DNA from: an uncultured bacterium
GTDB lineage: Bacteria; Vulcanimicrobiota; CADAWZ01
Assembly: GCA_902790465.1 (NCBI GenBank)
Contig: CADASF010000010.1
Coordinates: 1 to 64,000, forward strand
Length of the DNA stretch: 64,000 nucleotides
Reading direction: 5' to 3'
The notes under the pieces are model-generated. The model worked only from the letters and a program-made list of their open reading frames with translations, was not told the origin of the DNA and ran no database searches. Made by a program: the position numbers and the translations under genes. How positions within the stretch are numbered: the stretch's first letter is position 1; every line of letters begins with the position of its first letter. Of this stretch, positions 41,264 through 60,243 are shown piece after piece.

Positions 41264-41492
41264 CTAATAATTTAACATCTCTTGTAATTCTCTTTTCAAT
41301 AAAAATGCAATATCCTTCCATTCTTTATCAATATTACCAAATAAACTAAATCTATCTTTTTCCAAATCAGCTACTGGTTTTAAAAAAATAGGTGAATTAG
41401 TTTTTAAAATAATTTTATAATAATTAGGTTCTTCTGGTCTTTTTTCAATTACACTTTCTGTTTCATCTTTATCTATATCATTAATACATTTT
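41264..41492 (-). pseudogene. Shifted 3' remainder of the two-TM/PH-like gene
   Basis: After the stop of the upstream frame the sequence stays open in another frame to a TAG at 41264. It reads NYYKIILKTNSPIFLKPVAD then EWKDIAFLLKRELQEMLNY, with no start codon near its beginning. It resembles the ends of the paralogues at 11342, 12023 and 41993. Removing one A from the AAAA run at 41489-41492 (reverse strand) joins it to the frame upstream and gives a product of about 239 residues. Confidence 0.65.
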
Positions 41493-41984
41493 ATAACCTT
41501 TTAAATTCAAAAAAATAGGCTTTTTACATTTTAAAATAATAGCATAACCTTTAACACAATTCTTCCTATATTTTTCAATAAGTATTACATTAGGGTAAAT
41601 ATCTTCAATATTTAAAGGTTCAATAAAAAATAAATTTGGCTTACTTTTAGTTCCAATGCTAATACCTGATTCAGAAAAATTAAATATGATATTTTCTTCT
41701 TTTTTACTATATAAAATATATAATAAAATTAACACTATAAATAATAAGGAAACTAAAAAATAAATTATATTATGATTTGCTCCATCTTTTTCTAAGAAAA
41801 AAAATACATATATTACAAATATACAAAAAACACCCAATACGCCAAATTCTATAAATTGTTTATAATAAGGAAAAAATTCTTTAAAGCAATCTGCTTCAAC
41901 TTGTAAAGAATCAGATGATTTTTTAAATTCAAACTTAGATTCAAGATCAAAATTTAAATTATTTACTTTTTTTATGAATTTCAT
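41481..41984 (-). CDS. Two-TM membrane protein with PH-like domain (member 4), C-terminally frameshifted
   Basis: 167 residues. Membrane segments at about 46-63 and 75-93, then IIFNFSESGISIGTKSKPNL and EPLNIEDIYPNVILIEK, like the other members. It stops after YAIILKCKKPIFLNLKGYKM, about 70 residues earlier than expected. A one-base change would restore the rest (see 41264-41492). It is either a pseudogene, a sequencing slip in an A run, or expressed in a short form. Its start is 8 bp after the stop of the paralogue at 41993. Confidence 0.7.
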   Translation of the reverse strand: MKFIKKVNNLNFDLESKFEFKKSSDSLQVEADCFKEFFPYYKQFIEFGVLGVFCIFVIYVFFFLEKDGANHNIIYFLVSLLFIVLILLYILYSKKEENIIFNFSESGISIGTKSKPNLFFIEPLNIEDIYPNVILIEKYRKNCVKGYAIILKCKKPIFLNLKGYKMY

Positions 41985-41992
41985 ATTTTACC

Positions 41993-42655
41993 CTAAAATT
42001 TTTCTATGTTCTTTTCATTATATTCTTTTATAACTTTTATATTTTGCTTTGTTGATAATCTTAATTTCTTTTTCAAAATATTCAATTTTGGTTCTAATTG
42101 TTCAAGATATTCTTTTTCGGTTAATGAGTCCCTATACAATAAAAATTTTTGCTTATAATCATTTCCAACAGGAAGATAAACATGCTTTTTAGATTTTAAT
42201 ATAATTGAATATATATCAAGGTCTTTATTAATGGACAAAGGATAATCTCTTTCATAATTAATTTTTTCAACTTGTACATATATGCTTGCAATATTAAGTT
42301 TCTCAATAAAAACAGGCTCAAAATTTCTATTAATTTCAGATTTTACTTCGATTCCATCTTTAGTAACAGTAACTATAACATCATGATCTTTTCCAACTGT
42401 AGTAAATACTGCAGATATAAACATCATTACCCCAACAATAGCTTGTGCACAACCTATAAAAAGTTTATATTCTGAATCTGAAGAAGAAATCGTATTAAAA
42501 AGAATTTGAGTAAGTAAAAAATATAATATAACCATACAAACTAAAACAAGTATTACAGGCAAAATTTTATATTCTTTTCTAAAAAAATATTCACCACAGG
42601 ATAATCTTACTCTTATATTTTGCTCATCTTCATCACTTATTATTCTAAAAATCAT
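41993..42655 (-). CDS. Two-TM membrane protein with PH-like domain (member 5)
   Basis: 220 residues. Membrane segments at about 31-52 and 66-86, then DVIVTVTKDGIEVKSEINRN and IEKLNIASIYVQVEK. The C-terminus is helical and basic (LNILKKKLRLSTKQN). Paralogue of the genes at 11342, 12023, 20061 and 41481. First gene of a short leftward set (with 41481). Function unknown. Confidence 0.78.
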   Translation of the reverse strand: MIFRIISDEDEQNIRVRLSCGEYFFRKEYKILPVILVLVCMVILYFLLTQILFNTISSSDSEYKLFIGCAQAIVGVMMFISAVFTTVGKDHDVIVTVTKDGIEVKSEINRNFEPVFIEKLNIASIYVQVEKINYERDYPLSINKDLDIYSIILKSKKHVYLPVGNDYKQKFLLYRDSLTEKEYLEQLEPKLNILKKKLRLSTKQNIKVIKEYNEKNIEKF

Positions 42656-42777: not shown

Positions 42778-42916
42778 TTAATTATAATATATATCTTTTG
42801 TGAAAAATAATAAAAAAACCTCCCATATTATGATAATACAGGAGGAGAAACAAAAACAGGTACAATGACCTTTATGTAATTATAACTCTTAAAGTTATAA
42901 AATGTCAAATATAATT

Positions 42917-45085
42917 TTAGTATGGCCAATATCTTTTATCACAATATGGACAAACAAATCTATTTGCTATCATGTTTCCAAGTGTACTTCGTATATCTTC
43001 TGTAGTACCCAACAAATGACCATTTGGACAATAATAACCTGCACCTTGTGCTCCATCTAATTGGTACAATTGTGAGAACTGCTCTGTATCAACAGGCATA
43101 TCTTCTGGGAACTTGAAGTTAATAAACTCCTTCATCAAACCATTGTTAAAACAATAATTTATTATACAGTTTTCAGCTTCTTCTTTTGATATATTCAATT
43201 CATACAAGTTAAAAGATTCAAGACATTCAAACAAAATTTCGATAAATCTATGTTTGCCTACCTGCTCACAATAATTCTTTATTTTATTTTGGCAAATACT
43301 CTTTATTATATTTTCCCTTGATGAATTTGAAGTAATATCCATCACAGCATCATTTAAATCTAAAGGGATCTGTTCTGTCTTTACAACAACATTGTCTGAA
43401 AGTATTTCTACAATAACTTTTCCCTGAGAAATTTTATACCAAGGAGATATCTTGCCATCTCTATCACATATCAAATAATTACCATTTGCATCTCTGTAAT
43501 TGCCAATAAACCTATATACAAACCAATATTGTCTAATTCTATTGATTAGTTCCTTAGTAATCAAACAATTGGTCCATTTGACATCTTTTCTTGTATTCCA
43601 ATAACTATAGTCATTGCAACTAAGTGAATCTTCAAGTGCCTGATCATCAGAATTATCTCTTTTCATTATTCCCTCTATATGTGCAAGAGAAAAAACCTGT
43701 TCCATCTGTAAATACATGATTTTATATAAATCTTTATTTGTTTCTCTGATATCAAAAACAGGCTTTCTTAGTGGCACAATATTTGACAGTTGCTCCATAA
43801 TATCCTGAATATATTCTTTTTTAATAAGAGAAGACTCTTGTTGTGAACCTATTAGCTCTGTCGAATCCTCGAAAGTCGAATCCTCGAAAAATGATTTCTC
43901 GAAAATCGATTTCTCTTTTTTAATATTTTTAATAAAAGAAGATTCTTGTTGTGAACAAAAAGCATATATCCCTTTACACACATTTATATCGACAAATGAA
44001 GGATCATTTTGGAATTTTTCAGGAATTGGAGAATCATATACCCGTATAGATGGCTCAGATTCCGAGCTAATCATTGAAATATCACTCGATATCTTATCTA
44101 AAAATCTATTTTTCTTCATTTTTGCAATATTTTCACAAGTATATTCCAAAGAAGCTATGCCAAATGTTGAGAAAGAAGGACTTAAATAACCAAGTTGTTT
44201 ATCGCCCCAAAGTACACTCATACCATTGACATTTGCTGCTATTATATCGTGGCTTGTCTCAGTACAAACTGCTGTCAAAAAAGAAGCTATTGTCGATTCA
44301 TTTTTGTTTATCTCAGAAATTGAAGGCATTGTTAGATACGTTACCTCATAAGGTCTTCTGCCATCAGTTGCAGGGCTTGAACAACCTGGCAATTTTTGTT
44401 CCCAAATAGAATCTGGCAACATATAGTGATTTAATTCTGTCAATGCAACAAAAGCATTCTTTTTCAACCTCGGAGATTGAAGACTCCAATGAGGAAGAGT
44501 AAAAATAGCAGTTGTATTAACATTATTATTGCTCCAAATGCGAAGAAGGTAACCAATATCTGCACAACAACCACTACCAGTACCACCACAGAGAGAACCT
44601 ACAACATAGACATTAACATAATATTCCATCATAATGTAATCATCTGTTCCAAGATTTTTTTGAATCTCTGCAGGTGATAATTTTTGAAGTCTATGTATTT
44701 CAGCTGTTATCTTTCCAGATATCAAATTATAATTATGAAAAAGAGCAAGACGACCTGCCATTCTTATATTTCCTGCACCTTTATTTATACAGGTACCAAC
44801 ATTTTTCAAAAGATTCGGATCACCCCATTTATTCCAATCAAAATCAGAACCAACATGTGGGGCTCCACTTATATAATCGGCAAAAGCTTCTTGTTCAACA
44901 GACATACCAATAAAATCATCTTCATCAAGAACATCTGATTTATGGGCTGTTTCGAGGACTTTTATTCCTACCCAAGAAGCCTTTTTATAATCGCCATATT
45001 TATAACTCAAATTATTTGCAACTTTTTCACATATATTTTGACCAGAAGTTCCAATACCTATGATCAAAGTTTCTGCAATTCTCAT
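42917..45085 (-). CDS. Tubulin/FtsZ-superfamily-like protein, copy 1 (middle domain missing)
   Basis: 722 residues from the ATG at 45085 (MRIAETLIIGIG), with GAGGT upstream; the 5' extension would contain that site. Tubulin-type motifs: GIGTSG near the N-terminus and the signature GSLCGGTGSGCCADIGYLLR. The C-terminus has a CPNGH...CPYC metal site, preceding RYWPY. Compared with the copy at 45412, about 330 residues of the helical middle region are absent; in their place is a short stretch with repeated elements (QQESSFIK, FEDSTFEDST, QQESSLIK). The GTP-binding end and the tail are otherwise closely similar. Superfamily members of this kind (Tubulin_2/FtsZ-like) are thought to form GTP-dependent filaments linked to membrane processes. 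Whether this shortened form polymerises is unknown. Confidence 0.85.
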   Translation of the reverse strand: MRIAETLIIGIGTSGQNICEKVANNLSYKYGDYKKASWVGIKVLETAHKSDVLDEDDFIGMSVEQEAFADYISGAPHVGSDFDWNKWGDPNLLKNVGTCINKGAGNIRMAGRLALFHNYNLISGKITAEIHRLQKLSPAEIQKNLGTDDYIMMEYYVNVYVVGSLCGGTGSGCCADIGYLLRIWSNNNVNTTAIFTLPHWSLQSPRLKKNAFVALTELNHYMLPDSIWEQKLPGCSSPATDGRRPYEVTYLTMPSISEINKNESTIASFLTAVCTETSHDIIAANVNGMSVLWGDKQLGYLSPSFSTFGIASLEYTCENIAKMKKNRFLDKISSDISMISSESEPSIRVYDSPIPEKFQNDPSFVDINVCKGIYAFCSQQESSFIKNIKKEKSIFEKSFFEDSTFEDSTELIGSQQESSLIKKEYIQDIMEQLSNIVPLRKPVFDIRETNKDLYKIMYLQMEQVFSLAHIEGIMKRDNSDDQALEDSLSCNDYSYWNTRKDVKWTNCLITKELINRIRQYWFVYRFIGNYRDANGNYLICDRDGKISPWYKISQGKVIVEILSDNVVVKTEQIPLDLNDAVMDITSNSSRENIIKSICQNKIKNYCEQVGKHRFIEILFECLESFNLYELNISKEEAENCIINYCFNNGLMKEFINFKFPEDMPVDTEQFSQLYQLDGAQGAGYYCPNGHLLGTTEDIRSTLGNMIANRFVCPYCDKRYWPY

Positions 45086-45203
45086 AAAAAAGTAATACCT
45101 CACAAAACAAACTAAATTCTAAAACAAAACTAATACATTTTAATTTTATAATTTTCTTATTACAAAATAAATGTGAATTTATTACAATTTAGACTTATTT
45201 CAA

Positions 45204-45218
45204 TGACATATTCTGACA
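45204..45218 (-). promoter_or_regulatory. TGACA-N5-TGACA operator upstream of tubulin copy 1
   Basis: TGACATATTCTGACA, 119 bp before the start at 45085. The whole stretch 45110-45370 is a near copy of 48585-48845. Confidence 0.7.
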
Positions 45219-45335
45219 TTATACCTATAAATAACAAAATAAAATTCTTATTTACATGATAAATAATATTTTTTAGTATCTTTATAAGATTTAAAAAAAA
45301 AAACTTTATAAAAAAGATTCACATTCATGGCAATA

Positions 45336-45371
45336 AAAAAGCTCCTTCACTTATAAGAGAAAGAGCTTTTT
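45336..45371 (-). terminator. Terminator of tubulin copy 2
   Basis: AAAAAGCTCCTTC pairs with GAAAGAGCTTTTT (one mismatch) 40 bp after the stop at 45412; T run in the leftward direction. Confidence 0.85.
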
Positions 45372-45411
45372 ATTTATATTGAATGCTTATTGTTAAACTC
45401 TAATCAATAAA

Positions 45412-48400
45412 CTATGGCCAATATCTTTTATCACAAAATGGACAAACAAATCTATTTGCTATCATGTTTCTGAGTGTACTTTTTATATCTTCTGTAGTAC
45501 CCAACAAATGACCATTTGGACAATAATAGCCTGTTTTAAAACACTCATGCCCTGCGACTTCTGCTCCTTCCCAATAAAGCAATTGTGAAAACAGCTTTTC
45601 ATCAACAGGTTTATCAACAGGGAACTTGAATTCAATAAATTCACTTTCAAGACCATTGTTAAAACAATAATTTATTATACAGTTTTCAGCTTCTTTTTTT
45701 GATATATTCAACTCATACGATTCCAAATTATCGAGACATTTGAACAAAATTTCAATAAATTCGCCTTTATTTCCCTTAGCTTCACGTTGCTGTATATAAC
45801 TCATTATCTTATTTTGGCAGGTAATTACTATCTCTTTCTGATTGGAAGCAATATCCATCACAGCATCATTTATATCTAAAGAAACTTTTTCTGTCTTTAC
45901 AACAACATTGTCTGATACTATGTCTAAAAACACTTTTCCATTTGAAATTTTATACCAAGGAGAATTATTTTCATCTCGATAATTACCAAGCAATCTATAT
46001 ACGACCCAAAATTGTTTAATTCTATCTATTTCATCTTGTGAAAGCAGACAATTTTTCCATTTCACATCTTTTCTTGTATTCCAAAAACTAAAATCATTAC
46101 AACTCATTGAATCTTCAAGTACCTTATAATCAGAATCATTACTTTTCATTATTCCCGCTATATGTGCAAGAGAAAAACCATGTTCCATCTGTAATGTAAT
46201 AATTCTATAAAGGTCTCTACTGTCAAAAACAGGCTTACGAAGTTGTACATTAGACAACAATCCAATTATATCATCAATGTATTCTTTTCTAAATAGACGA
46301 GACTCTTGTTGTGGACAGAAAACATTTATCTTGCCTATTGCAGGATCATTTCGAAATTTTTCAGGAATTGGTGATTGACTTGATATCATTGTTGGTTCTG
46401 AATTTTGTTGAATAGAAGATATAGCAGCAGAAGCATCTCCTTCTTTGTTTATCAAATAAAGTATGTTTCTATATTTAGATAAATCAGCAAAATAACTATT
46501 TGCTCTAAGCTCAATAGTCTTTTTGATGTAATCTGGAATATATTCCTTTATATCAGACATAAGCCTTGAATCAAAAGAACTCATAGAGTCAGTAAGCTTG
46601 GAAATCAAATCATCTTTCAACTTTTCAATTACAGAAGAAGCCATATCAAATTCAAGCTTTTCAACACTAACATTTGGATTATCATAAGTGTCTTCCAGAA
46701 CCATATTGTATATTTCTTCTACTTCATCTTTAATAGAATTATTCTTGTAAAACTGTATTCCATTAATAGGTGGAATATTTTTAAGTTCTCTATTGTATTC
46801 TGCTTCATAAAATTTATACATTGCCATAATTGCAGATTCCAAATTATCCAATCTTTTAATATACTTGTCCGCAAAAAAATTATATATATTTAAAAGATTA
46901 TAATTGTCATCCACTTTTGGATCAATAAACTTTTCTATTTTTTTTGTAGCAACAAGATGAACCATATCTTTTACATAAGAAACAGAATTTGCAATAATAG
47001 ACTTCCAAGCGTCATTTTGTTTATTATCAATAAACAAAGGAAGACCATCAATATGTAAATAATCTTCTGTCTGATTTCTGATATTTTCTCTCTTTAATTT
47101 ACTTACTTTTACAGCCTTAGAACATAACTTTTTTATCTTTCCATTTGGTTCTATCCAACTATCAATATCTGTTTTTCCAAGTCTTAAAATTCTTGAAAGA
47201 AAACCTGGACCAGCATTTATTGAAGTAATATATCTATCTGCCATTTCTAAAAATCTTTTTTCAAGAGAAGTAAGGAAATTATCTAACCAAAAATCAGCTC
47301 TTTCTTTTATATAAACATCATTATTAATTTCTTCTTTTATAGTCGAGAAAATAACATCTATCTGCTCATGAATAGAATCATCCTTAGTAAATTTTTGTTT
47401 TTCAAACTCCTCTTTCATTCTCGCTTCATATTTTGTTATAATTGACTTATCATAAAATTTATCCACAATAAATTTAGGAGTTTTTTCAAACAATTCAGCT
47501 CTAAATTGTGAAATATATTTTGTAGGATTATCTTTCCAACATCCATAAATTTTTTGTAAAAATCTGTCTTTACACATTCTTGAAACATGTTCAGCAGGAT
47601 ATTCCAAAGAAGCTATGCCAAATGTTGAGAAAGAAGGACTTAAATAACCAAGTTGTCTATCTCTTGCAAGCACATTCATACCATCGACATTTGCTGCTAT
47701 TATATCGTGGCTTATCTCAGTACAAACTGCTGTCAAAAAAGAAGCAATTGTCGATTCATTTTTGTCTATCTCATTTGGCATACAATTTATTGGTTGAGTC
47801 AAATAAATAAGATCATAAGGTTTTCTACCATCAGTTGCAGGGCTTGAAAAACCTGACAATTTTTGAGACCAAACAGAATCTGATAACATATAGTGATTTA
47901 ATTCTGTCAATGCAACAAAAGCATTCTTTTTCAATCTCGGATTTTGAAGACTCCAATGAGGAAGAGTAAAAATAGCAGTTGTATTAACATCATTATTTCC
48001 CCAAATGCGAAGAAGATAACCGAGGTCTGCACAACATCCACTTCCTGTACCACCACAGAGAGAACCTACAACATAGACATTAACAAAACCTTGCATTACA
48101 TCAATATTATCTTTTGTTCCAAGATTTTTTTGAATCTCTGCAGGTGATAATTTTTGAAGTCTCTGTATTTCAACTGTTATCTTTCCAGATATCAAATTAT
48201 AATTATGAAAAAGAGCAAGACGACCTGCCATTCTTATATTGCCAGCACCATCATTTATGTAAGCACCAATATTTTTTAAAAGATTTGGATCACCCCATTC
48301 ATTCCAACCAAATTCTATTCCAACATGTGGGGCTCCACTAACATAATCGGCAAAAGCTGAGGGTTCTACAAACATACCAATAAAATCATCTTCATCAAGA

Positions 48401-48555
48401 ACATCTGATTTATGGGCTGTTTCAAGAACCTTTATGCCCAACCAAGAAGCCTTTTTATAATAGCCATATTTACTATTTAGGCAATTTGCAACACCTTCAC
48501 ATATATTTTGACCAGCAGTCCCAACACCAATTATCAAAGTCTTTGCAACTCTCAT
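45412..48555 (-). CDS. Tubulin/FtsZ-superfamily-like protein, copy 2 (full length)
   Basis: 1047 residues from the ATG at 48555 (MRVAKTLIIGVG), with GTGAGG upstream. Order: G-box GVGTAG at 10-15; tubulin signature GSLCGGTGSG at 164-173; a conserved FTLPHWSLQNPRLKKNAFVA; then a long helical middle domain (about 345-750) of unknown fold; a conserved LRKPVFDSRDLYRI segment; and a C-terminal metal site CPNGH...CPFC ending RYWP. This build, a GTPase head with a long arm and a zinc tail, differs from FtsZ (about 380 residues) and fits the large bacterial tubulin-like (Tubulin_2/FtsZl) families, which are often found near vWA proteins. It sits in a row with two paralogues and beside the Hsp70/vWA operon. 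Function inferred: filament or scaffold in a membrane-linked process. Confidence 0.87.
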   Translation of the reverse strand: MRVAKTLIIGVGTAGQNICEGVANCLNSKYGYYKKASWLGIKVLETAHKSDVLDEDDFIGMFVEPSAFADYVSGAPHVGIEFGWNEWGDPNLLKNIGAYINDGAGNIRMAGRLALFHNYNLISGKITVEIQRLQKLSPAEIQKNLGTKDNIDVMQGFVNVYVVGSLCGGTGSGCCADLGYLLRIWGNNDVNTTAIFTLPHWSLQNPRLKKNAFVALTELNHYMLSDSVWSQKLSGFSSPATDGRKPYDLIYLTQPINCMPNEIDKNESTIASFLTAVCTEISHDIIAANVDGMNVLARDRQLGYLSPSFSTFGIASLEYPAEHVSRMCKDRFLQKIYGCWKDNPTKYISQFRAELFEKTPKFIVDKFYDKSIITKYEARMKEEFEKQKFTKDDSIHEQIDVIFSTIKEEINNDVYIKERADFWLDNFLTSLEKRFLEMADRYITSINAGPGFLSRILRLGKTDIDSWIEPNGKIKKLCSKAVKVSKLKRENIRNQTEDYLHIDGLPLFIDNKQNDAWKSIIANSVSYVKDMVHLVATKKIEKFIDPKVDDNYNLLNIYNFFADKYIKRLDNLESAIMAMYKFYEAEYNRELKNIPPINGIQFYKNNSIKDEVEEIYNMVLEDTYDNPNVSVEKLEFDMASSVIEKLKDDLISKLTDSMSSFDSRLMSDIKEYIPDYIKKTIELRANSYFADLSKYRNILYLINKEGDASAAISSIQQNSEPTMISSQSPIPEKFRNDPAIGKINVFCPQQESRLFRKEYIDDIIGLLSNVQLRKPVFDSRDLYRIITLQMEHGFSLAHIAGIMKSNDSDYKVLEDSMSCNDFSFWNTRKDVKWKNCLLSQDEIDRIKQFWVVYRLLGNYRDENNSPWYKISNGKVFLDIVSDNVVVKTEKVSLDINDAVMDIASNQKEIVITCQNKIMSYIQQREAKGNKGEFIEILFKCLDNLESYELNISKKEAENCIINYCFNNGLESEFIEFKFPVDKPVDEKLFSQLLYWEGAEVAGHECFKTGYYCPNGHLLGTTEDIKSTLRNMIANRFVCPFCDKRYWP

Positions 48556-48672
48556 AAAAAGTAATACCTCACAAAACAAACTAAATACTAAAACAAAACT
48601 AATACATTTTAATTTTATAATTTTGTTATTACAAAATAAATGTGAATTTATTACAATTTAGACTTATTTCAA

Positions 48673-48687
48673 TGACATATTCTGACA
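48673..48687 (-). promoter_or_regulatory. TGACA-N5-TGACA operator upstream of tubulin copy 2
   Basis: TGACATATTCTGACA, 118 bp before the start at 48555; identical to the site at 45204. Confidence 0.7.
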
Positions 48688-48807
48688 TTATACCCATAAA
48701 TAAGAAGATAAAATTCTTATTTACATGATAAATAATATTTTTTAGTATCTTTATAAGATTTTTTTTTCAAAAAAAACATTACAAAAAAGATTCACATTCA
48801 TGACAAT

Positions 48808-48845
48808 AAAAAAGCTCCTTCACTTGTAAGAGAAAGAGCTTTTTA
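48808..48845 (-). terminator. Terminator of tubulin copy 3
   Basis: AAAAAGCTCCTTC pairs with GAAAGAGCTTTTT, the same hairpin as at 45336, after the stop at 48883. Confidence 0.85.
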
Positions 48846-48882
48846 TCTTTATGAGAATTTTAATTCAACTAAAACTCAAATT

Positions 48883-49749
48883 TTAGCCAACAGGCCAATA
48901 TCTTTTTCCAGTTCCACAAGCTGGACAAACAAATCTATTTTGTATCATACCTCTAAGTCTTGATTGTATGTCTGAACCTTCAAATTTATGACCATTTGGA
49001 CAATAATACCCCTCACCTTGTGCTCCATCTAATTGGTACAATTGTGAGAACTGCTCTGTGTCAACAGGTTTATCAACAGGGAACTTGAAGTTAATATATT
49101 CTGACTCAAGACCATTTGCAAAACAATATCCTATGATAGCATCTTCTGCTTTTCCTTTTGTTATATTCAAATAATATGATGCATAAAATTCAAGGCATTT
49201 GAACAAAACTTCAATAAATTGACTTTTGCCAACTTGTTGAATATAAGTCTTTATCCTATTTTGGCAGGTCATTTCTATTGCTCTCTGTCTTGAAGGATTT
49301 AAAGCAATATCCATTATAGCATCATCTAAGGACAATTCAACTTTTTCTGTCTTTACAACAACATTGTCTGATACTATGTCTAAAAACACTTTTCCTTGTG
49401 AAATCTTATACCAAGGAGATATTTTGCCATCTTTATCACATATCAAATAATTGCCATTTGCATCTCTATAATTTCCAATAAACCTAAAGACAACCCAATA
49501 TTGTTTGATCTTGTCGATTACATCTTTTGAAATCAAGCAATTTTTCCATTTGACATCATTTCTCGTATTCCAATTTGTGAAATCATTGCAACTAAGTGAA
49601 TCTTCCAGTGCTTGCATATCTGAATCATTACCCTTTAAAATTCCTTTTAGATGTGCAAGAGAAGAACCATGCTGCATTTGTAATGCCATAATTCTATATG
49701 GGTCTCTACTATCAAAAACAGGCTTACGAAGTTGTACATTAGACAACAA
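48883..49749 (-). pseudogene. Shifted C-terminal part of tubulin copy 3 (zinc-tail domain)
   Basis: 288 codons that begin LSNVQLRKPVFDSRD and end with CPNGH...CPACGTGKRYWPVG. In copy 2 this follows the helical middle without a break. Here it lies in another frame from the upstream part (49755-52019). The in-frame sequence continues upstream of the ATG as FCPQQESRLFRKEYIDDII, so the ATG at 49749 is probably not a true start, and no ribosome site is seen. The zinc ligands and conserved segments are intact, so the break may be recent. It could be made only if frameshifting or internal initiation occurs. Confidence 0.8.
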
Positions 49750-49754
49750 TCCAA

Positions 49755-52019
49755 TTATATCATCAATGTATTCTTTTCTAAATAGACGAGACTCTTGTTG
49801 TGGACAGAAACTTTTTGGAATTTTATAGGAATTGGTGATTGACTTGATACCATTGTTGGTTCTGAATTTTGTTGAATAGAAGATATAGCAGCAGAAGCAT
49901 CTCCTTCTTTGTTTATCAAATAGAGTATATGTCTATAATTAGATAAATCTACAAAGTAACTATTTGCTTCAAATTCAATATTTTTCTTTATGTCATCAGG
50001 AATATATTCTTTTACATCTGACATAATTCTTGTATCAAAAGAGCTCATGCTACCAGTAAGACTTGGAACCAAATTGTCTTTCAATTTTTCAACAACAGCA
50101 GAAGCCATATCAAATTCACGCTTCTCAATACTGATATTTGGATTATCATTACTGGCCTTGATGACCATATTATATATTTCTTCAACTTCATCAGCAACTA
50201 TATTGTTCTTATAAAATTGTTTACCATTTACATGAGGAACTTTTTCAAGATTATCATTATATTCTTTTTCATGATATTTGTACAGTTCAACAATAGCAGA
50301 TTCAAAATTTTCTAATCTCTTTATATACTTATCCGAGAACAAATTATACTTACTTTGAATAGTATTATTCGCATATACCATTGAATCTACAAAAGATTTT
50401 ACCTTTTCAGCTACAACAAAGTTTATCATATCTCTTACATATGAAATAGATCTCTTTACAACATCTTCCCAAACTTCTTTTTGTTTTGCACCTATCAAAA
50501 AGAATAAACCTTTTATATTAATATATTCGTTTGCCTGATTCTTAATACTTCTTCTAGCAGTATCTACTTTTGTTTTAGCATTTGAATAAGCTTTTTCTAT
50601 ATCACCTTTTGGCATTGACCAAGCATCTATATCTGCTTTTGTCTGCTTCAATATTCTTGCAAGCAATCCAGGACCACCTGTCAAAGATGTCAAATATTTT
50701 TGAGAAATTAGCAAAAATTTATCTTCAATATGTTTGGAGAAATTATTAATCCAAGCATCAGCTCTGCTCTTGATGTCCACATCATCTTGAATTTCCCTAT
50801 TGATAGTGGCAAATATGACATCCATTTGGTTGTGAATAGAAGAATCTTTGGAGAAAACTTGTCTATCAAACTCCTCTTTCATTCTTTTCTCATATTTTGC
50901 TATAATGTTCTTATCAAACAAGTTATCAATGATAAGTTTAGGAGTTTTTTCTAATATCTCTTCTCTACCCTGTGAGATATCTTTACCAGAATTATCTTGC
51001 CAACATCCATAAATCTTTTGTAACATTCTCTCCTTGCACATTCTAGAAATATGTTCAGCAGGATATTCCAAAACAGCTATTCCAAAAGATGAGAAAGCAG
51101 GACTTAAATAACCAAGTTGTCTATTTGTTGCAAGAGCATTCATACCATCTACATTTGCAGCAGCTATATCATGGCTTGTTTCAGTACAGACAGCACTCAA
51201 AAAAGAAGCTATTGTCGCTTCATTTTTTGAAATCTCATTAGGCTGACCATTAGGTGGTTGAGTTAAATAAATGACATCATAAGGTTTTCTGCTATCAGTT
51301 GCAGGATTTGAGAAACCTGGCAATTTTTGAGACCAAACAGAATCATTTAACATATAGTGATTTAACTCTGTCAATGCAACAAAGGCATTCTTTTTCAATC
51401 TTGGAGCCTGAAGACTCCAATGAGGAAGTGTAAAAATACCTGTTACAGCAATATCATTATTTCCCCAAACACGGAGAAGATAACCGAGGTCTGCACAACA
51501 TCCACTTCCTGTTCCACCACAGAGAGAACCTACAACATATACATTTACAGAACCTTGCATTACATCAATATTATCTTTTGTTCCAAGATTTTTTTGAATC
51601 TCTGCAGGTGATAATTTTTGAAGTCTCTGTATTTCAGCTGTTATCTTTCCAGATATCAAAGCATAATTATGAAAAAGAGCAAGACGACCTGCCATTCTTA
51701 TATTTCCTGCCCCTACATTTATGCAAGAGCCAACATTTTTCAAAAGATTTGGATCTCCCCAATCATTCCAACCAAAATTACTTCCAACATGTGGAGCTCC
51801 ACTTATATAATCTGAAAACGACTTTGTTTCAACAGATAAACCTATAAAATCACCTTTTTCAAGTACATCTGATTTATGGGCTGTTTCAAGAACTCTAATA
51901 CCTACCCAAGAAGCCTTTTTATAGTCCCCATATTTACTGTTTAGATTGTTTGCAACACCTTCACACACATTTTGACCAGAAGTTCCTATACCTATGATCA
52001 AAGTTTTTGCAATTCTCAT
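49755..52019 (-). CDS. Tubulin/FtsZ-superfamily-like protein, copy 3, N-terminal part (frameshifted)
   Basis: 754 residues from the ATG at 52019, with AAAGGG upstream. Motifs: GIGTSG, the signature GSLCGGTGSGCCADLGYLLR, and the whole helical middle region. At SQSPIPIKFQK the frame departs from that of copy 2; compared with copy 2 about 25 nt are missing there, and translation continues in a wrong frame for 18 residues to a stop (VSVHNKSLVYLEKNTLMI). The product would lack the conserved zinc tail. No TGACA-N5-TGWCA site is visible upstream of this copy, in contrast to copies 1 and 2. It lies next to the vWA gene, separated by a terminator. Confidence 0.85.
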   Translation of the reverse strand: MRIAKTLIIGIGTSGQNVCEGVANNLNSKYGDYKKASWVGIRVLETAHKSDVLEKGDFIGLSVETKSFSDYISGAPHVGSNFGWNDWGDPNLLKNVGSCINVGAGNIRMAGRLALFHNYALISGKITAEIQRLQKLSPAEIQKNLGTKDNIDVMQGSVNVYVVGSLCGGTGSGCCADLGYLLRVWGNNDIAVTGIFTLPHWSLQAPRLKKNAFVALTELNHYMLNDSVWSQKLPGFSNPATDSRKPYDVIYLTQPPNGQPNEISKNEATIASFLSAVCTETSHDIAAANVDGMNALATNRQLGYLSPAFSSFGIAVLEYPAEHISRMCKERMLQKIYGCWQDNSGKDISQGREEILEKTPKLIIDNLFDKNIIAKYEKRMKEEFDRQVFSKDSSIHNQMDVIFATINREIQDDVDIKSRADAWINNFSKHIEDKFLLISQKYLTSLTGGPGLLARILKQTKADIDAWSMPKGDIEKAYSNAKTKVDTARRSIKNQANEYINIKGLFFLIGAKQKEVWEDVVKRSISYVRDMINFVVAEKVKSFVDSMVYANNTIQSKYNLFSDKYIKRLENFESAIVELYKYHEKEYNDNLEKVPHVNGKQFYKNNIVADEVEEIYNMVIKASNDNPNISIEKREFDMASAVVEKLKDNLVPSLTGSMSSFDTRIMSDVKEYIPDDIKKNIEFEANSYFVDLSNYRHILYLINKEGDASAAISSIQQNSEPTMVSSQSPIPIKFQKVSVHNKSLVYLEKNTLMI

Positions 52020-52116
52020 AAAAACCACCCTTTTAATAAAATGTTGTATTAGTTTGTTTTATTTGAAATCTAAATAAAAATTCGCAATTATAATATAATA
52101 TCCTTTTATATTAATA

Positions 52117-52152
52117 AAAAAAAGTGTCTGTTATTTTTAACAAACACTTTTT
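52117..52152 (-). terminator. Terminator of the Hsp70/propeller/vWA operon
   Basis: AAAAAAGTGTCTGTT pairs with AACAAACACTTTTTT (one mismatch) just after the stop at 52175. Confidence 0.85.
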
Positions 52153-52174
52153 TTTATAATTTTCAAAAGGCAAA

Positions 52175-53545
52175 TTAACCAACAATTAAATCATATGAAT
52201 TTCCATCCAAATCGATTGATAAAGAAATTACTGCTCCATTTCTTACTTTATATCTTTTATTAACCATTTCTTGAATATCATCTGGGTTAAATTCAGAAGG
52301 ATCTGTCGACATAGATGACTCATTGAATTGAAAAATAAATGAATCGTCATCTACAGAATATGAAATTTCAAAAACAGATTTTGCATCTTCAGGAACAGGT
52401 TCATTAGGATTTTCTTCACCTTTTATTCTAAGTGGTTTCTCAAAATTACCATCAACAAATATAAGTTCATAAGTGATATTTTCCTCAATCTCTTCTTTAT
52501 AAGGATTGTCATCAATACTAAATTCAATTTTATGTGTTTTTCCTTTTTTAGCTTTTTTATCATTTCCGTTTTTAGATTTTGGCATTACTGCAAAAATAAT
52601 TCCACAGATAACAACAACTGCACCAATTGCGATTGGTACAATAGGAAGTCCACCTTTATTTTCTTCAGTCGTTGTCTGTGTTTCTGAAGGAGTTGGTGTT
52701 TCTGTTGGTTGTGTTACCCCACTTTCTTCTTCTGCAGGTTCAGGTTTTACAGGTTCAGGCAATACTTCCGCACTTGGCTTATAATCATCAGGAACCCAAG
52801 TTGAATACGGAAAAGATGGATAACGATTTTCTTCATTATTACCCATACTTTTTAAATTTTTAGGTAGTGCAAGAGTTATGAAAATTTCTGTTGGTTTATC
52901 ATTATCTTCAAAATAAAATGGAAATGAATTATCTTCAGGGAATCTAAAACCTTTTTCTTGAAGCAATGATTTTAATTCAGGGCTGTTTTTGCCAATTACT
53001 GGGCGGTGTTCTCCAATAGGTCCCCTACTTTCATGGGAATTTGTTATCAATATCACAATAGTTGACTCAGGATTTTCAGTTTTTTTGAGGATAGACATAA
53101 GTGCTTGATATGTATCATGTCCACCTTTAGATTCATTCATTGTTGTTTTTGGAAGTGAATTTACAAATTGCTTACGTTCTGCTCCATCTTCTGAAAGTTT
53201 AAATGTATCTGATGTATCCCATACATCGAGTTCCCAAGCAACACTCGATATCGAATCAAAAGGAGTACATATATTATTTGCAATTAAACAAGCAGCTTGC
53301 TTCATTGCTACTACATTTCTCTGATCTGATGTAAAATGACTTGTTGAAAGTGCAACAACAAAATTGTATTTTCCTTTTTCAGGATCAGCATTTGATTTTC
53401 TCATTTCTCCCTTTATAAAATCATCAATACCTTTATAAAATTCTTTATTGGGAGCAATTCTCTCTATTTGTTCAGCATTAATTGAAGTTGGAAAAAATGC
53501 AAAAAACATAGAAAAAACAAAAATTAAAAGTAAAAACTTTTTCAT
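52175..53545 (-). CDS. Exported single-pass membrane protein with degenerate vWA-like domain
   Basis: 456 residues. Signal peptide 1-24 (cleavage near INA). Residues about 60-230 look like a von Willebrand A fold: NFVVALSTSHF in the place of DxSxS (Asp replaced by Ala65), GGHDTYQAL with the MIDAS-type Thr145, and VILITNSHES where an Asp is usual. The metal site is therefore degenerate. A proline/threonine/glutamate-rich linker (about 255-297) leads to a membrane helix (301-321), then a basic stop (KSKNGNDKKAKKGK) and a cytoplasmic beta-rich domain of about 125 residues. The layout suits a sensor or anchor reaching from the envelope to the cytoplasm. Last gene of the operon with the Hsp70-like and propeller proteins. 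Confidence 0.8.
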   Translation of the reverse strand: MKKFLLLIFVFSMFFAFFPTSINAEQIERIAPNKEFYKGIDDFIKGEMRKSNADPEKGKYNFVVALSTSHFTSDQRNVVAMKQAACLIANNICTPFDSISSVAWELDVWDTSDTFKLSEDGAERKQFVNSLPKTTMNESKGGHDTYQALMSILKKTENPESTIVILITNSHESRGPIGEHRPVIGKNSPELKSLLQEKGFRFPEDNSFPFYFEDNDKPTEIFITLALPKNLKSMGNNEENRYPSFPYSTWVPDDYKPSAEVLPEPVKPEPAEEESGVTQPTETPTPSETQTTTEENKGGLPIVPIAIGAVVVICGIIFAVMPKSKNGNDKKAKKGKTHKIEFSIDDNPYKEEIEENITYELIFVDGNFEKPLRIKGEENPNEPVPEDAKSVFEISYSVDDDSFIFQFNESSMSTDPSEFNPDDIQEMVNKRYKVRNGAVISLSIDLDGNSYDLIVG

Positions 53546-53562
53546 TTACTTCTCTCCTTAAA

Positions 53563-55431
53563 TTATTTTTTTAATTTTGCCAATAATTCTTCTATCTTAG
53601 TCTTTTCGTCTTTAGGTTTATCTTCTTCTTGTTCTATAGGTTTTCCACATTCACTGCAAAATTTTGTTCCATCTTTAGGCAATTCTGCTTTGCAATGTGG
53701 ACAAATAATAATTGAAGAATTTTCCAAAACTACAGGCAAATCCTCTTCATCTCTTGAAAAATCAAAACCCAAAGAAGGCTTATCTTCTTTTTGAATCAAT
53801 TCTTGTTTTTCTGCTGCACGATTAGGTATTTCAACAACTTTATTTATTTGAAGAATTTGAATAGGTTCAACAGTATCCTCATTTAATTCAAAATCAGTAT
53901 CAATTGACAACTCTTTCTGTTTTTCCTCATTTTCTTCTATTGTTGTTTGAAAATTATTATTTACAATTTGAGTATTTGTTGTATCTGAAGTTTCAGAATT
54001 GTCTTCAATTCTATCAACAACAACAACTCCCTTTTTATGTAGAACAAATATTTTATCTTCAAAACACAACATTTCTATTGGTTCTATTTTAGTATCCCCT
54101 TGCCATATAGTTTCAGAACTTCCTGAGTCTTTTTCCATTGCAAAAATATTTCCAAAAGTATTTCCAAATTGTATATTTCTAAACATTGACAATAAAATAA
54201 GAGTTCCATTTTCTTCTTTACATAAAATAGAATTTACATGTTCTGAATTGGTTAGGTTATATGTCCCAGTGCCATTTTGCATTATTCCATCACTAAATAT
54301 ATATGCATAATCTTGTGATTCTTTTCCTTTATATATAAAGAAAGCAATAGGATTTGGATCGCTTATGGAAAGAGATTGTTCATAATTTCTTCCTTCTAAA
54401 TCACATACATAAAATTGTACTGAATCAGAATATGCGACAGAAACTTTTTCATGATTAACCCAAATATAGTCAACTTTTCCTTTGTCGAAATAAATTTCTT
54501 TAGGGGGTTCATCTTCATTTTTATTGAAAAAATCATATTTATATATACTGTCATTTTTTCCTTGCCAATACAATGCAGTATAACTCATAGCTAAACAAGA
54601 TGAATTATTCATCAACTGATATTTATCTGAATCCAAATTTACTTTCTTGATAATTGGTTTAGTATTAACTTCTGGACATAACGCTGTATAAAGACAGTAT
54701 TCTCCATTATCTTCTGTCCACATGGCAACTCCACAATGTCCAGCTATCAATCCCACTGGTTTTCCTTTAACTTGATCATCAATAGGGATAGGCTCATTTC
54801 CATTTAAATTAAACCATAAAAACTTATCTTCTAAAGCAATTATGATGTTATCTGCTAAAACAGCCATACTCCGAGAAATGTTTGATTTTTTCCCCATAGG
54901 AACTGTCTTTGATCTTACTAAATTAAAATTGTTATCTATATCAAAAACATCAATACGAGTGTCATGCCAAACAAAAAGATAACAACCAACTATCCTAGCT
55001 GAATACAATTCTGAACAATCATTTTCATTTGCATAAAGTTCTCTTGATTCAGATTTATATTTTTTATCCTTTGAAGATAATTTTATTTTATAATTGTCAC
55101 AAAAACCAGTTCCATCATAATTATTTGAAGATAATTTAGGAGATTTCAAGCAACCTCCGTCTGCGGGACAAAAATGTAACCAAGGCTGCACTAGCCTTTC
55201 ACATTTTTCACATACATATAAAAGACTCTTACAATCAGGACACCTTATTTCCTCTCCTATTCCCATTATGCTTATCTTCATCATATTTTTTTGATTATCT
55301 TTATCACATATAGGACAATTATATCTAAAATTACCACCACATTCAGGGCAGAATCTCAAATCTTTTTCTGGTAAATCATTTGGAAGTTTTGAAGATATTT
55401 CACCCTTACAAATCGGACACTTCTTTAACAT
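53563..55431 (-). CDS. Zinc-ribbon protein with propeller-like middle
   Basis: 622 residues. The N-terminus carries three zinc-ribbon units: C5-C8/C28-C31, C39-C42/C64-C67 and C74-C77/C88 with C94 nearby. Residues about 130-470 are beta-rich with repeated short strands (IDVFDIDNNFNLVRS, KYDFFNKNEDEP, VDRIEDN), as in beta-propellers; I see no exact WD signature. A low-complexity acidic linker follows, then a further ribbon C577-C580/C592-C595 and a lysine-rich end. No signal peptide. It probably acts as a scaffold in the cytoplasm between the Hsp70-like ATPase (30 bp upstream) and the vWA membrane protein (17 bp downstream). Confidence 0.78.
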   Translation of the reverse strand: MLKKCPICKGEISSKLPNDLPEKDLRFCPECGGNFRYNCPICDKDNQKNMMKISIMGIGEEIRCPDCKSLLYVCEKCERLVQPWLHFCPADGGCLKSPKLSSNNYDGTGFCDNYKIKLSSKDKKYKSESRELYANENDCSELYSARIVGCYLFVWHDTRIDVFDIDNNFNLVRSKTVPMGKKSNISRSMAVLADNIIIALEDKFLWFNLNGNEPIPIDDQVKGKPVGLIAGHCGVAMWTEDNGEYCLYTALCPEVNTKPIIKKVNLDSDKYQLMNNSSCLAMSYTALYWQGKNDSIYKYDFFNKNEDEPPKEIYFDKGKVDYIWVNHEKVSVAYSDSVQFYVCDLEGRNYEQSLSISDPNPIAFFIYKGKESQDYAYIFSDGIMQNGTGTYNLTNSEHVNSILCKEENGTLILLSMFRNIQFGNTFGNIFAMEKDSGSSETIWQGDTKIEPIEMLCFEDKIFVLHKKGVVVVDRIEDNSETSDTTNTQIVNNNFQTTIEENEEKQKELSIDTDFELNEDTVEPIQILQINKVVEIPNRAAEKQELIQKEDKPSLGFDFSRDEEDLPVVLENSSIIICPHCKAELPKDGTKFCSECGKPIEQEEDKPKDEKTKIEELLAKLKK

Positions 55432-55461
55432 TCTTTCCTCCGAAATTTATATTGTATAAAA

Positions 55462-57948
55462 TCAAGAAATATTTATATCCCAAAAAATCTGTCTTCCACC
55501 ATCAGTACAAACGCATTTTTTGTCAGTAACTGTTACTACAAAAAATGCTTCTTCATCATCTGAATTATCTTTTTTAGATATTGCAGTAGCAATTTTCTTA
55601 TTTCCTTCCCACAATTTTGACTCAGCAAACAATTCCAATATTGCAATATTGGATTCATTATATGGAACATCTATTTGAAAAGATTTTTCAGATAAAACTT
55701 CTTCCTCTTTGATAATTTCTTCAATAATTTCTTCATCTGATTCATATTTTATAGTAAATTTTGCGAAAGAAGTTGTTTTGGATAATGGTTCAACAGGAAG
55801 GCAAGCACCTTCTACTACTGCATATAATCTATCATAATCAGTTAAAAATCCATCTTGTTTAGTTGCTTCTAAAGTCAAATGTAGATTTGAAAATATAGAA
55901 TTTCTGACATATCTACAAATATTTGAACCACCAACTAAAGCAATTGTGTTTACTTTTTTACAATTGATTCCCATTGAAAATAATTTATCATAGGCCTCTA
56001 CTACTATATCTTTAAATATTGATTCTATCACAACATTTCCGTAAGATTTATAGTCAAAACCTACATCTTCTTCTTGCAAGTAATTTTCTCTATTTAGAAT
56101 ATGTCTTGTGGGATTCTTCTTATTTTCATTGGCTTCTTTTTCAAATTGTTCTTTTATATTTTTACAAAATGCAAGTTTTTCTTTAGTTTTTGTTGGAGAG
56201 TTACTTTCATCTCCCCAAACAGCTTTCCAAAAACTTATATAAGTGCCATTAGAGAATGTTGAAATTAGATAAGCATTTTTATCTAATGCATCTGAAAATA
56301 TAAAATCAAGTAAATTTCCACCCAAATATGGCGTTTTTTGTATCGCAGGAGGATATTTGCTTTTTTGTTCGTCCGTCAATTCTAAATGAATTGATTTTAT
56401 ATCTGTAAGAGTTACAATTCCCTTATCTTTCTTGATTTTACCCACAGATAAATCGGTTGTACCAGCTCCTGAATCAACTGTTGCAAAAAGATCATCTTCA
56501 GATAATGTTTTAAAAATATCATTTTTTTCTAAAACCATATAATTTAAAATAACTTCAGGTTCAGAAATGAAACTAATCTGAGATTCTTCTATATTTTCTT
56601 CAGAAAAAGCTTTGTTAAAAGCATTTTTGAATGTATCTATATACCTTTTGATTTCATCTTCTTTCTCCAATATCGGATATGTAAAAATATAATCTGGTTT
56701 AAAGAAAGTGTTTAATTTGAAACCTGTTGGAATACTTTTATTAGCCTTAGGAAATAGTTCTTTAGCCCATTGTTTCATAATCTTGTATACTTCAGAGAAG
56801 AATTTACCAAGTAAAAACTCATTATCCAAATCACTTCTTTTCTGATTAAATCTAATTAAAGTCTTTAATCCTGTTATAGCTACTAAATTTTTTGTATTTG
56901 GTAAATGCAATATACAATCATCTATTGTTTTTATTTTTTTTGCTTTTTCATTATCATAGGAAAAATATTTTTGTTTGAAATCATCAACATTATTAAAACA
57001 ATAAAATTCTCCTCTTCCTGTTTTATCAATAATCATTGAAGAAGAAAAATATTTTCCACCAATATCTTCTATACAACAATTGTTTTTAGAGAGCATTGGA
57101 TGTCCACCGACCCAACAAGCTCTTATAGAAAATGTTTTTGCTCCCAAATCAAAAGATATTCTAAGTTTTCTACGATTCTTATTTTTTTGTTGAGGTTTAA
57201 CTTCAACAAGTTCTACTTTTTGATTAGCAATTTCCCAATATGGTGCTTTTTCAAGATTCATATTATTTTTTTCTATAGATAAAACGGCATTGCTGTTAGC
57301 TTTTATGGATATTTCAGTATTTCCAAACGAATCATTAGAATAGACATTATAACCACTTGGAGGATCAATTACAAAATTTCTGTCTATACTTGAAGGGTTA
57401 TATATACAAATATTTTGTCTTTCTATCTTATTTGAGAAAAATAAAAATTCACTTCCTAAATTCCATTCAGATGAAGCTACTGCAACTTTTCCATCAATTT
57501 GATATGATATTTCCTCAAAATTATTATTTTTCCAAATTTCGTTTAAATTTCTCAAACCATTGTTTAATCTAAAGCGTATAATTCCTGAAGGCTGTTTTTT
57601 GTAATCTTTCAAACAAAATTCAAAACATTTATTATCAATATTTTTATTAACCTGAACAAAACCTTGAGTTTCTGTGGGATCTTTTTTAAATAATACATTT
57701 GGTGCATCTGAAATATCACAATAAATATCTACAGATTCTCCATATATATGTTCAAATCTAATAAAAAATGAGCCACCATTCTCAATTTCAATATTTTTAA
57801 CAGACCCTATTTTTTCATATTGCGAAAGTATTGGTCCCCAAACTCGCCCTGTAGCCCTTCCACAATATGGACAAAATTTTTGTTCTCTTACTTTTGAATT
57901 TGAACACCAAAGACATTCATCTTTAGTTATTTGAGCATTTGTATTCAA
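55462..57948 (-). CDS. Hsp70/actin-superfamily ATPase with N-terminal zinc ribbon
   Basis: 828 residues. Zinc ribbon C12-C15/C26-C29 (CLWC...CPYCGR). Residues about 45-250 form a beta-rich domain. The actin/Hsp70-type nucleotide fold starts at about 261: phosphate-1 loop SFDLGAKTFS (D267), phosphate-2 loop VDSGAGTTDLSV (D492) and adenosine motif ALVGGSN (670-676). The C-terminal 110 residues are beta-rich (EKSFQIDVPYNESNIAILEL), where Hsp70 has its peptide-binding part. The longer N-terminus and absence of DnaK's KPNE-type sequences set it apart from DnaK; it looks like a specialised chaperone or actin-like ATPase. First gene of the operon; a TGACA-N5-TGACA site lies 92 bp upstream. Confidence 0.85.
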   Translation of the reverse strand: MNTNAQITKDECLWCSNSKVREQKFCPYCGRATGRVWGPILSQYEKIGSVKNIEIENGGSFFIRFEHIYGESVDIYCDISDAPNVLFKKDPTETQGFVQVNKNIDNKCFEFCLKDYKKQPSGIIRFRLNNGLRNLNEIWKNNNFEEISYQIDGKVAVASSEWNLGSEFLFFSNKIERQNICIYNPSSIDRNFVIDPPSGYNVYSNDSFGNTEISIKANSNAVLSIEKNNMNLEKAPYWEIANQKVELVEVKPQQKNKNRRKLRISFDLGAKTFSIRACWVGGHPMLSKNNCCIEDIGGKYFSSSMIIDKTGRGEFYCFNNVDDFKQKYFSYDNEKAKKIKTIDDCILHLPNTKNLVAITGLKTLIRFNQKRSDLDNEFLLGKFFSEVYKIMKQWAKELFPKANKSIPTGFKLNTFFKPDYIFTYPILEKEDEIKRYIDTFKNAFNKAFSEENIEESQISFISEPEVILNYMVLEKNDIFKTLSEDDLFATVDSGAGTTDLSVGKIKKDKGIVTLTDIKSIHLELTDEQKSKYPPAIQKTPYLGGNLLDFIFSDALDKNAYLISTFSNGTYISFWKAVWGDESNSPTKTKEKLAFCKNIKEQFEKEANENKKNPTRHILNRENYLQEEDVGFDYKSYGNVVIESIFKDIVVEAYDKLFSMGINCKKVNTIALVGGSNICRYVRNSIFSNLHLTLEATKQDGFLTDYDRLYAVVEGACLPVEPLSKTTSFAKFTIKYESDEEIIEEIIKEEEVLSEKSFQIDVPYNESNIAILELFAESKLWEGNKKIATAISKKDNSDDEEAFFVVTVTDKKCVCTDGGRQIFWDINIS

Positions 57949-58039
57949 ATTTTTAGTTCTCCCATATTCACAAAATAATCAAATTATATTTCTTAATAAT
58001 TCTATCTATTTATGCTAATTCCTTGAAAAAAATATAAAA

Positions 58040-58054
58040 TGACAGATACTGACA
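58040..58054 (-). promoter_or_regulatory. TGACA-N5-TGACA operator upstream of the Hsp70-like operon
   Basis: TGACAGATACTGACA, between the terminator of the DTW gene and the Hsp70-like start at 57948. Confidence 0.65.
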
Positions 58055-58719: not shown

Positions 58720-60243
58720 CTATTTCAAATTCTTTCCACATTCGATACAGAATTTTCTTCCTGCATCATCTTGTTCTACTCCACAATGTGGACATACGAT
58801 TTTACCTTCTCTTACAGGCATTATTTCTACTTTTTCTTCCTCTGAATTTTCTTTCTTTGCCTTTTCCTTCAATTCATTTTCTTTAGCTACTCCTTCTTCT
58901 TCCTTTTTAAGTGTAAATGAAAGAAGAATAATTGAAATAACACAAGCAACTACACAAGATCCAAAGAATCCCTGCCATCCATGTGCTTTTATTATCCAAG
59001 CAGCACCGACACCAGATAAAACAGCTCCTAAATATCCAAACATTCCAGTAAATCCTGTTGCTGCTGATGCTGCATCTTGAACAGTTACCCTTGAAGTTTG
59101 TACTCCACCTACAAGATTTTGAGGACCATCAACAAAGAATCCTATCGCTCCAAGTATAGCACCATTAATCCATACTGACCAAAATCCAAATTTATCTGGA
59201 GAAAGCAATCCAAGACTTGGCATACAACAAGTACAAGCAATACCAAGAATGACTAAGAAAATTATATTAATAGGTGCACATCTTCCTTTAAAATACTTAT
59301 CTGCAATCCAACCAGCTACAATTCCACCAGGAACACCAAAAAATGGCATTATTGCAAGAGTTGCAGCTGCTGCTCCAGGTGTAAAAGCACATTCATCAAC
59401 GAGATATTTAGCTGTCCAGTCTAAAGTTGCAAAACGAATAAAATAGACAAAAACATAAGTTACAGCTAATATCCAAAGGAAACCATTTCCAAAAACATAT
59501 TTTAAAAGAATCTGTTTACGATTTAAATTCTTTTCTGGAACAACAGGCATTCTATCATTTTTATAATCTTCAATTTTTGGAAGTCCAACTGCTTGTGGTC
59601 TGTCTGTCAAAGTCATTAGAAGACCAATAGAAGCTATTATACCTATAATACCTGAAGCTACAAAGACATAACGCCAATTTCCCATTGCCAAAAATCCTGT
59701 AGCTATTAAACCGACAGTACAAGTTCCAAAAGTATGTGATGATGACCATATTGTCCATTTGGTAGCTCTTTCTTTTGGTGCAAACCAATGGACAAGACCT
59801 TTTGCGACTGGAGGAAATCCCATTGATTGGAATATACCATTAAGTCCCCAAAGCACATAAAGGATTATAAGAGAAGGAGCAAATGGGAAAAACAAATTCA
59901 CAAGAGAGGCTCCCAAAAGACCTGTGGCCATAAATACTCTTATGTTACATCTATCTGCCAACATTCCATTTAAAAATTTACCAATACCATAAGTTATATA
60001 CATTATGGTTCCTAAAATACCAAGTTGCTCGATTGTCAATCCTGTTCCAAACATTTCTTTTGCAAACATAGGACGGACAAAGGACTCACCTTTTCTGAGC
60101 CAGTAAAATATGACATAGCCAAAATACATACCCAAGAACATCTTCCATCTATATGCTTTATAGACAGAATCAATTTTTTCTGCAGGTACTTTTTCCTTTG
60201 CATCAGGCAAAGGTTTCATGATATTATAAATCCAGTCAAACAT
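58720..60243 (-). CDS. GlpT/UhpT-type MFS transporter with C-terminal zinc ribbon
   Basis: 507 residues with about 12 membrane segments. MFLGMYFGYVIFYWLRKGES and MFGTGLTIEQLGILGTIMYI, then GIGKFLNGMLADRCNIRVFM are typical of the organophosphate:phosphate antiporters and of the UhpC-type sensor relatives. After the last membrane segment comes a charged linker (KKEEEGVAKENELKEKAKKE) and a zinc ribbon C484-C487/C499-C502 (CPHCGVEQDDAGRKFC). That ribbon closely resembles the one in the product of 53563 (CPHCKAELPKDGTKFC). A cytoplasmic ribbon on such a transporter is unusual and may be a docking tag. Confidence 0.88.
   Translation of the reverse strand: MFDWIYNIMKPLPDAKEKVPAEKIDSVYKAYRWKMFLGMYFGYVIFYWLRKGESFVRPMFAKEMFGTGLTIEQLGILGTIMYITYGIGKFLNGMLADRCNIRVFMATGLLGASLVNLFFPFAPSLIILYVLWGLNGIFQSMGFPPVAKGLVHWFAPKERATKWTIWSSSHTFGTCTVGLIATGFLAMGNWRYVFVASGIIGIIASIGLLMTLTDRPQAVGLPKIEDYKNDRMPVVPEKNLNRKQILLKYVFGNGFLWILAVTYVFVYFIRFATLDWTAKYLVDECAFTPGAAAATLAIMPFFGVPGGIVAGWIADKYFKGRCAPINIIFLVILGIACTCCMPSLGLLSPDKFGFWSVWINGAILGAIGFFVDGPQNLVGGVQTSRVTVQDAASAATGFTGMFGYLGAVLSGVGAAWIIKAHGWQGFFGSCVVACVISIILLSFTLKKEEEGVAKENELKEKAKKENSEEEKVEIMPVREGKIVCPHCGVEQDDAGRKFCIECGKNLK

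Follow-up and report, generated by a model that had tools for sequence, protein, structure and literature searches.

Tubulin_2 genes beside a probable operon for a zinc-ribbon Hsp70-like ATPase, a putative zinc-ribbon propeller and an exported one-pass protein in an uncultured gut bacterium

The window, a 64,000-nt stretch of the draft genome (3.05 Mb in 121 contigs) of an uncultured gut bacterium, carries on its minus strand three tandem tubulin-superfamily genes and, upstream of them on the same strand, adjoining genes for an Hsp70-like protein (hsp), a zinc-ribbon protein and an exported one-pass protein (Table 1). The gaps between the latter three are 31 nt (hsp/zinc-ribbon protein) and 18 nt (zinc-ribbon protein/exported protein), in agreement with the operon proposed by an initial annotation that had been made from the sequence alone. 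Terminator-like hairpins accompanied by T-runs lie 3' of the exported-protein gene and of the tubulin copies; because such hairpins stand in between, the three upstream genes are probably transcribed together, with the tubulins probably on transcripts of their own. At the other end of the locus, a perfect sigma-70 consensus (TTGACA-18-TATAAT, 42908-42879, minus strand) stands before a small membrane-protein pair (41481-42655).

Table 1. Positions of the genes and associated features of the locus within the window
Feature	Position	Strand	Length or property	Evidence
Hsp70-like ATPase gene	55462..57948	-	828 aa	Profile matches and motifs
Zinc-ribbon beta-propeller gene (predicted)	53563..55431	-	622 aa	Pfam DZR, AF2, Foldseek
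Exported one-pass protein gene	52175..53545	-	456 aa	AF2, topology, profile match
Terminator-like hairpin, exported-protein gene/tubulin copy 3	52105..52170	-	-20.4 kcal/mol, z -6.8	
Tubulin_2 copy 3, GTPase domain and middle region	49755..52028	-	757 aa	PF13809 1.4e-44, DNA alignment, synteny
Tubulin copy 3, C-terminal part in shifted frame, CPNGH...CPxC zinc module	48883..49749	-	288 aa	
Terminator-like hairpin after tubulin copy 3	48790-48870		z -3.0	
Upstream region of tubulin copy 2	48556..48761	-	98% identical to 45087-45292 upstream of copy 1	
Tubulin_2 copy 2, sole intact full-length copy	45412..48579	-	1055 aa	PF13809 3.4e-44
Terminator-like hairpin after tubulin copy 2	45310..45390	-	z -5.1	
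Tubulin_2 copy 1	42917..45103	-	728 aa	PF13809 1.5e-40, DNA alignment
Terminator-like hairpin after tubulin copy 1	42819-42845		z -3.9	

All three tubulin reading frames contain a Tubulin_2 domain (PF13809; E 1e-40 to 1e-44, 140-153 bits against a Pfam cut-off of 27 bits) with the GGTGSG loop, and they are the only Tubulin_2 genes in the genome. The CPNGH...CPxC tail ascribed to them earlier is present wherever the C-terminus is. The genes repeat in tandem with a period of about 3.47 kb, and their GTPase domains are mostly 77-89% identical. The three tandem tubulins of the initial annotation thus stand as to family, motif and arrangement, but copy 2 alone is intact. DNA alignment shows that copy 1 consists of the GTPase domain and the C-terminal zinc module, having lost in frame a candidate coiled-coil middle region of ~375 residues whose 3.5-residue hydrophobic periodicity is above that of shuffles (z 2.5), and that a deletion of ~25 nt near the 3' end of copy 3 shifts its frame, so that the reading frame 48883-49749 is the tail of copy 3. 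The same frameshift rules out reading this frame as a gene of its own.

Over its full length, copy 2 shares 52% identity with the lone tubulin of a related locus (L033), and by synteny it is copy 3 that occupies the place of the relatives' single gene. Because relatives carry a single tubulin gene and only one of the three copies here is unaltered, the triplicate set, earlier read as part of the design of the system, is better described from the sequence as a lineage-specific local amplification; for the same reasons we dropped a model in which three working tubulins serve as subunits of a hetero-polymer. The extra copies might be no more than decaying duplicates or assembly artefacts, an account that concerns the triplication only and is compatible with every other explanation considered here. 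An internal deletion in one copy, a frameshift in another, the single tubulin of relatives and the draft state of the assembly all fit such an origin. It is opposed by dN/dS values between copies that stay at 0.25-0.46 throughout, the frameshifted tail of copy 3 not excepted (0.28-0.39 against the other copies), and by the hairpin that each copy has of its own and the near-identical regions upstream of copies 1 and 2, and we regard it as possible, if rather doubtful. Given these ratios and a synonymous divergence between copies of 0.26-0.77, the copies have, judging by their substitution patterns, been under purifying selection for some time. Copies 1 and 2 are more alike in their 3' ends (95%) and upstream blocks (98%) than in their coding part (about 88%), which points to gene conversion between them. 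The amplification has possibly produced tubulin isoforms that lack either the middle region or the zinc tail.

The CPNGH...CPxC end is an addition of the tubulins of family f1, to which the host belongs; it is mostly absent from the other families of the phylum. By eye, the end of the Tubulin_2 protein of another genome of the phylum (G026; L044:7027-10236) resembles a SHOCT domain, and for this reason C-terminal modules of Tubulin_2 proteins may have been swapped between lineages.

The Hsp70-like protein gave no Hsp70 match in Pfam, only a weak DZR match. It is composed of an N-terminal zinc ribbon (CxxC-CxxC), a beta-rich domain, an Hsp70 nucleotide-binding domain and an SBD-beta-like end, the last judged by eye, with no sequence remaining for an alpha lid. 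Its profile matches that of zinc-ribbon Hsp70s elsewhere in the phylum (profile-profile probability 93%, E 3e-7), and the profile of these in turn matches DnaK over the whole nucleotide-binding domain (3.5e-30); a direct match between the hsp and DnaK profiles at residues 305-436, where it ends, is in register and weak (E 0.06). The motifs DLGAKT (phosphate-1), DSGAGTTD (phosphate-2), SEP (EP) and LVGG (GG) are all present. By profile, then, the gene encodes a predicted Hsp70 homologue with an actin-fold nucleotide-binding domain, and the zinc-ribbon ATPase of actin/Hsp70 type that was first proposed holds. It resembles DnaK in its nucleotide-binding motifs and SBD-beta-like region, and differs from it in the N-terminal ribbon and beta-rich domain, the missing lid, a very high divergence and active-site motifs that vary among orthologues. 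These are less complete in relatives, the phosphate-2 motif being degenerate in L033 and its Asp replaced by Asn in L034, so some members may work without ATP turnover.

The zinc-ribbon protein has several N-terminal ribbons (Pfam DZR, 1.2e-8), a predicted propeller at ~140-475, a disordered linker and an extra C-terminal ribbon that is absent from relatives. Its AF2 model is all-beta, of low confidence (pLDDT 53), and beta-propellers rank top among the Foldseek matches to it (best E 5.8e-9). A beta-propeller identity, as first suggested for this multi-ribbon protein, is supported by this modelling. The zinc-ribbon proteins of sister families match PQQ propellers, and the profile of the window protein overlaps theirs in the ribbons only; a tblastn search of plasmids gave no match. 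A transporter-like protein (MFS by eye) encoded at 58720-60243 on the minus strand ends in a zinc ribbon closely resembling the extra ribbon of the propeller-like protein, so that ribbon tails seem to be mobile in the host genome. Two further zinc-ribbon proteins are encoded on the same contig just beyond the end of the window (L032:428-1081 and 1094-1789).

The exported protein has a signal peptide, an alpha/beta ectodomain, a transmembrane segment at ~303-325 and a beta-rich cytoplasmic tail. A vWA-like ectodomain had been claimed for it and is not confirmed: Pfam gives no vWA match at E<=10, the metal-binding motif is gone, and Foldseek on a weak AF2 model (pLDDT 60) returns Rossmann-like proteins and no vWA. 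Methyltransferases among these matches were rejected as an identity, their TM score of about 0.2 being taken as generic Rossmann-like similarity. In position and topology the protein matches the canonical vWA proteins of sister families, and it aligns with their profile in register but weakly (probability 14%, E 0.002). The MIDAS site D-x-S-x-S, intact in those sister proteins, reads A-L-S-T-S in the window (ALSTS, ALSTS and ALSTA in the three orthologues). By alignment, then, the protein has lost its MIDAS motif, and its vWA fold is no more than putative.

A single-sequence query of genome contigs returned no relative, and an alignment query was needed to detect relatives. Two other f1 genera (G002, L033; G003, L034) have the genes arranged as hsp, propeller, exported protein and tubulin, the last as a single copy, and their proteins are 31-76% identical to those of the window. 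Tubulin_2 is present in 24 of the 149 genomes of the phylum. The zinc-ribbon Hsp70 occurs in 13 genomes at E<=1e-35 and in the three f1 genomes; all 16 are Tubulin_2-positive, making 16 of 24 genomes with Tubulin_2 against none of the 125 others (Fisher P 6e-16 by genome and 2e-7 by genus, relatedness being ignored). Weak Hsp matches without Tubulin_2 were seen in G015 and G046. In 13 of the 16 genomes the zinc-ribbon Hsp70 gene is on the same contig as Tubulin_2 and within 10 kb of it, and in families f12 and f13 the two adjoin, as close as 2 nt in f12 (L043), where the Tubulin_2 partner is a second, more diverged paralogue. Taken together with the order common to three f1 genera, this adjacency bears out the co-occurrence for which other genomes were to be searched. 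In f12 genomes the zinc-ribbon Hsp70 is followed by a gene that looks by eye like a serine/threonine kinase (L043:2598-4889). Sister families carry exported canonical vWA proteins (DxSxS), zinc-ribbon PQQ-type propellers and Tubulin_2 side by side.

The zinc-ribbon Hsp70 had no match in 23 Tubulin_2 genomes sampled by way of named loci (22 from other groups and L056 from this phylum), in a scan without positive control, nor in 400 genomes of the phylum of a Chloroflexota locus, likewise without positive control and with few candidates scored per genome. Because tubulin, hsp and propeller are also unmatched in a genome of the host's own genus (G001, 89% complete), the system is probably dispensable; a DTW gene that neighbours the locus was likewise not found in G001.

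The Hsp70-like protein could simply be a dedicated folding chaperone for the large tubulin, within a remodelling module of the known FtsZl1/vWA type. Tubulin-family proteins often need chaperones, and the abutting Hsp70 and tubulin genes of f12 and f13 would suit such a role. In f1, by contrast, hsp is tied to the propeller and exported-protein genes, and a terminator-like hairpin precedes the tubulin gene. Moreover, neither a J-protein nor GrpE is among the ten proteins scanned, and the Tubulin_2 proteins of cyanobacteria and Chloroflexota seemingly do without a zinc-ribbon Hsp70. We consider a purely folding role unlikely.

Because zinc modules end all three cytoplasmic proteins and the exported protein has a cytoplasmic tail, an envelope-anchored complex around the tubulin is suggested. 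The reading that we tentatively favour, at somewhat less than an even chance, is that the locus is a phylum-specific variant of the FtsZl1 (Tubulin_2)/vWA envelope systems in which the parts would act as follows. The Tubulin_2 protein would form a GTP-dependent, coiled-coil-linked scaffold, perhaps filamentous, lining the inside of the cytoplasmic membrane. The exported protein would be an envelope sensor or anchor, any signal passing through its cytoplasmic tail, which the zinc-ribbon propeller, as an adaptor, would join to the tubulin. The zinc-ribbon Hsp70, with its nucleotide-binding domain and lidless SBD-beta, would use ATP to load, hold or dismantle the tubulin assembly. The role of the system would be envelope or membrane remodelling, not division as such: two ordinary FtsZ-type genes lie elsewhere in the genome (C9:48551-49033 and C14:58217-58699, E about 1e-47), so division is covered without Tubulin_2, and they argue against Tubulin_2 as the main division protein. 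Polymer formation is uncertain, since the T6-H7 elements, on which canonical filaments depend, could not be aligned in the FtsZl1 family (PMC2875224). A bolder version, which we think improbable, is a self-contained machine, restricted among the phyla tested to one uncultured phylum, in which the Hsp70-type ATPase itself builds up or breaks down a polymer of the tubulin family on a cue from the envelope protein and zinc ribbons are a shared docking code.

Kaur et al. 2020 (PMC7159879) described GTPase-centric neighbourhoods, some of which pair tubulin with extracellular vWA proteins while others contain HSP70, and the locus might accordingly be a conflict system (defence or self/non-self) in which tubulin and Hsp70 assemblies are effectors below an NTPase switch. 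Tubulin, an extracellular vWA-type protein, zinc ribbons and HSP70 are all parts of that class, and the patchy presence within the genus would fit. However, the tubulin and HSP70 themes of the GAP1-N2 neighbourhoods are non-overlapping and tied to a DO-GTPase (PMC7159879), whereas the present locus has both tubulin and Hsp70, and searches for the defining DO-GTPase were negative: DO-GTPase2 was not detected in the three f1 genomes or the f12/f13 genomes with the set (C. glutamicum control positive), nor DO-GTPase1 in the host's own genome, where the controls gave no signal either. Pfam found no GAP1 among the ten proteins scanned (39.4-58.7 kb), PADLOC and NCBIfam scans gave no match beyond noise, and the cluster is without an effector gene. 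We hold a conflict role to be decidedly unlikely.

The FtsZl1 (Tubulin_2)/vWA operons, for which Makarova and Koonin 2010 (PMC2875224) predicted membrane remodelling, are the comparison for the remodelling variant that we favour. The locus shares with them a Tubulin_2 protein of ~1000 aa with a middle region and C-terminal domain, an exported protein in the vWA position and an ordinary FtsZ in the same genome. Unlike them, it has no P-loop GTPase, kinase or OmpA gene (by Pfam, among ten genes), which are frequent there though not universal; its exported protein is without MIDAS, which is intact in most vWA proteins of those operons; and a zinc-ribbon Hsp70, a zinc-ribbon propeller and a zinc-module end on the tubulin are added. 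In the literature searched, which lay outside subscription titles, we found no description of the set of tubulin, Hsp70, propeller and exported protein, and no functional study of FtsZl1/Tubulin_2 systems. The claim of a candidate new system therefore survives for the exact set and not for its kind: systems of the FtsZl1/vWA and DO-GTPase kinds are already described (PMC2875224, PMC7159879), and tubulin with Hsp70 in one locus without a DO-GTPase appears to be new. Within the tubulin superfamily, few branches have diverged as far as FtsZl1/Tubulin_2, which is also widespread. The fixed four-gene order, with a nucleotide-driven Hsp70 replacing the usual GTPase, would offer a compact set that can be tested as a complex, and the locus would join the tubulin and HSP70 themes that were separate in earlier work.
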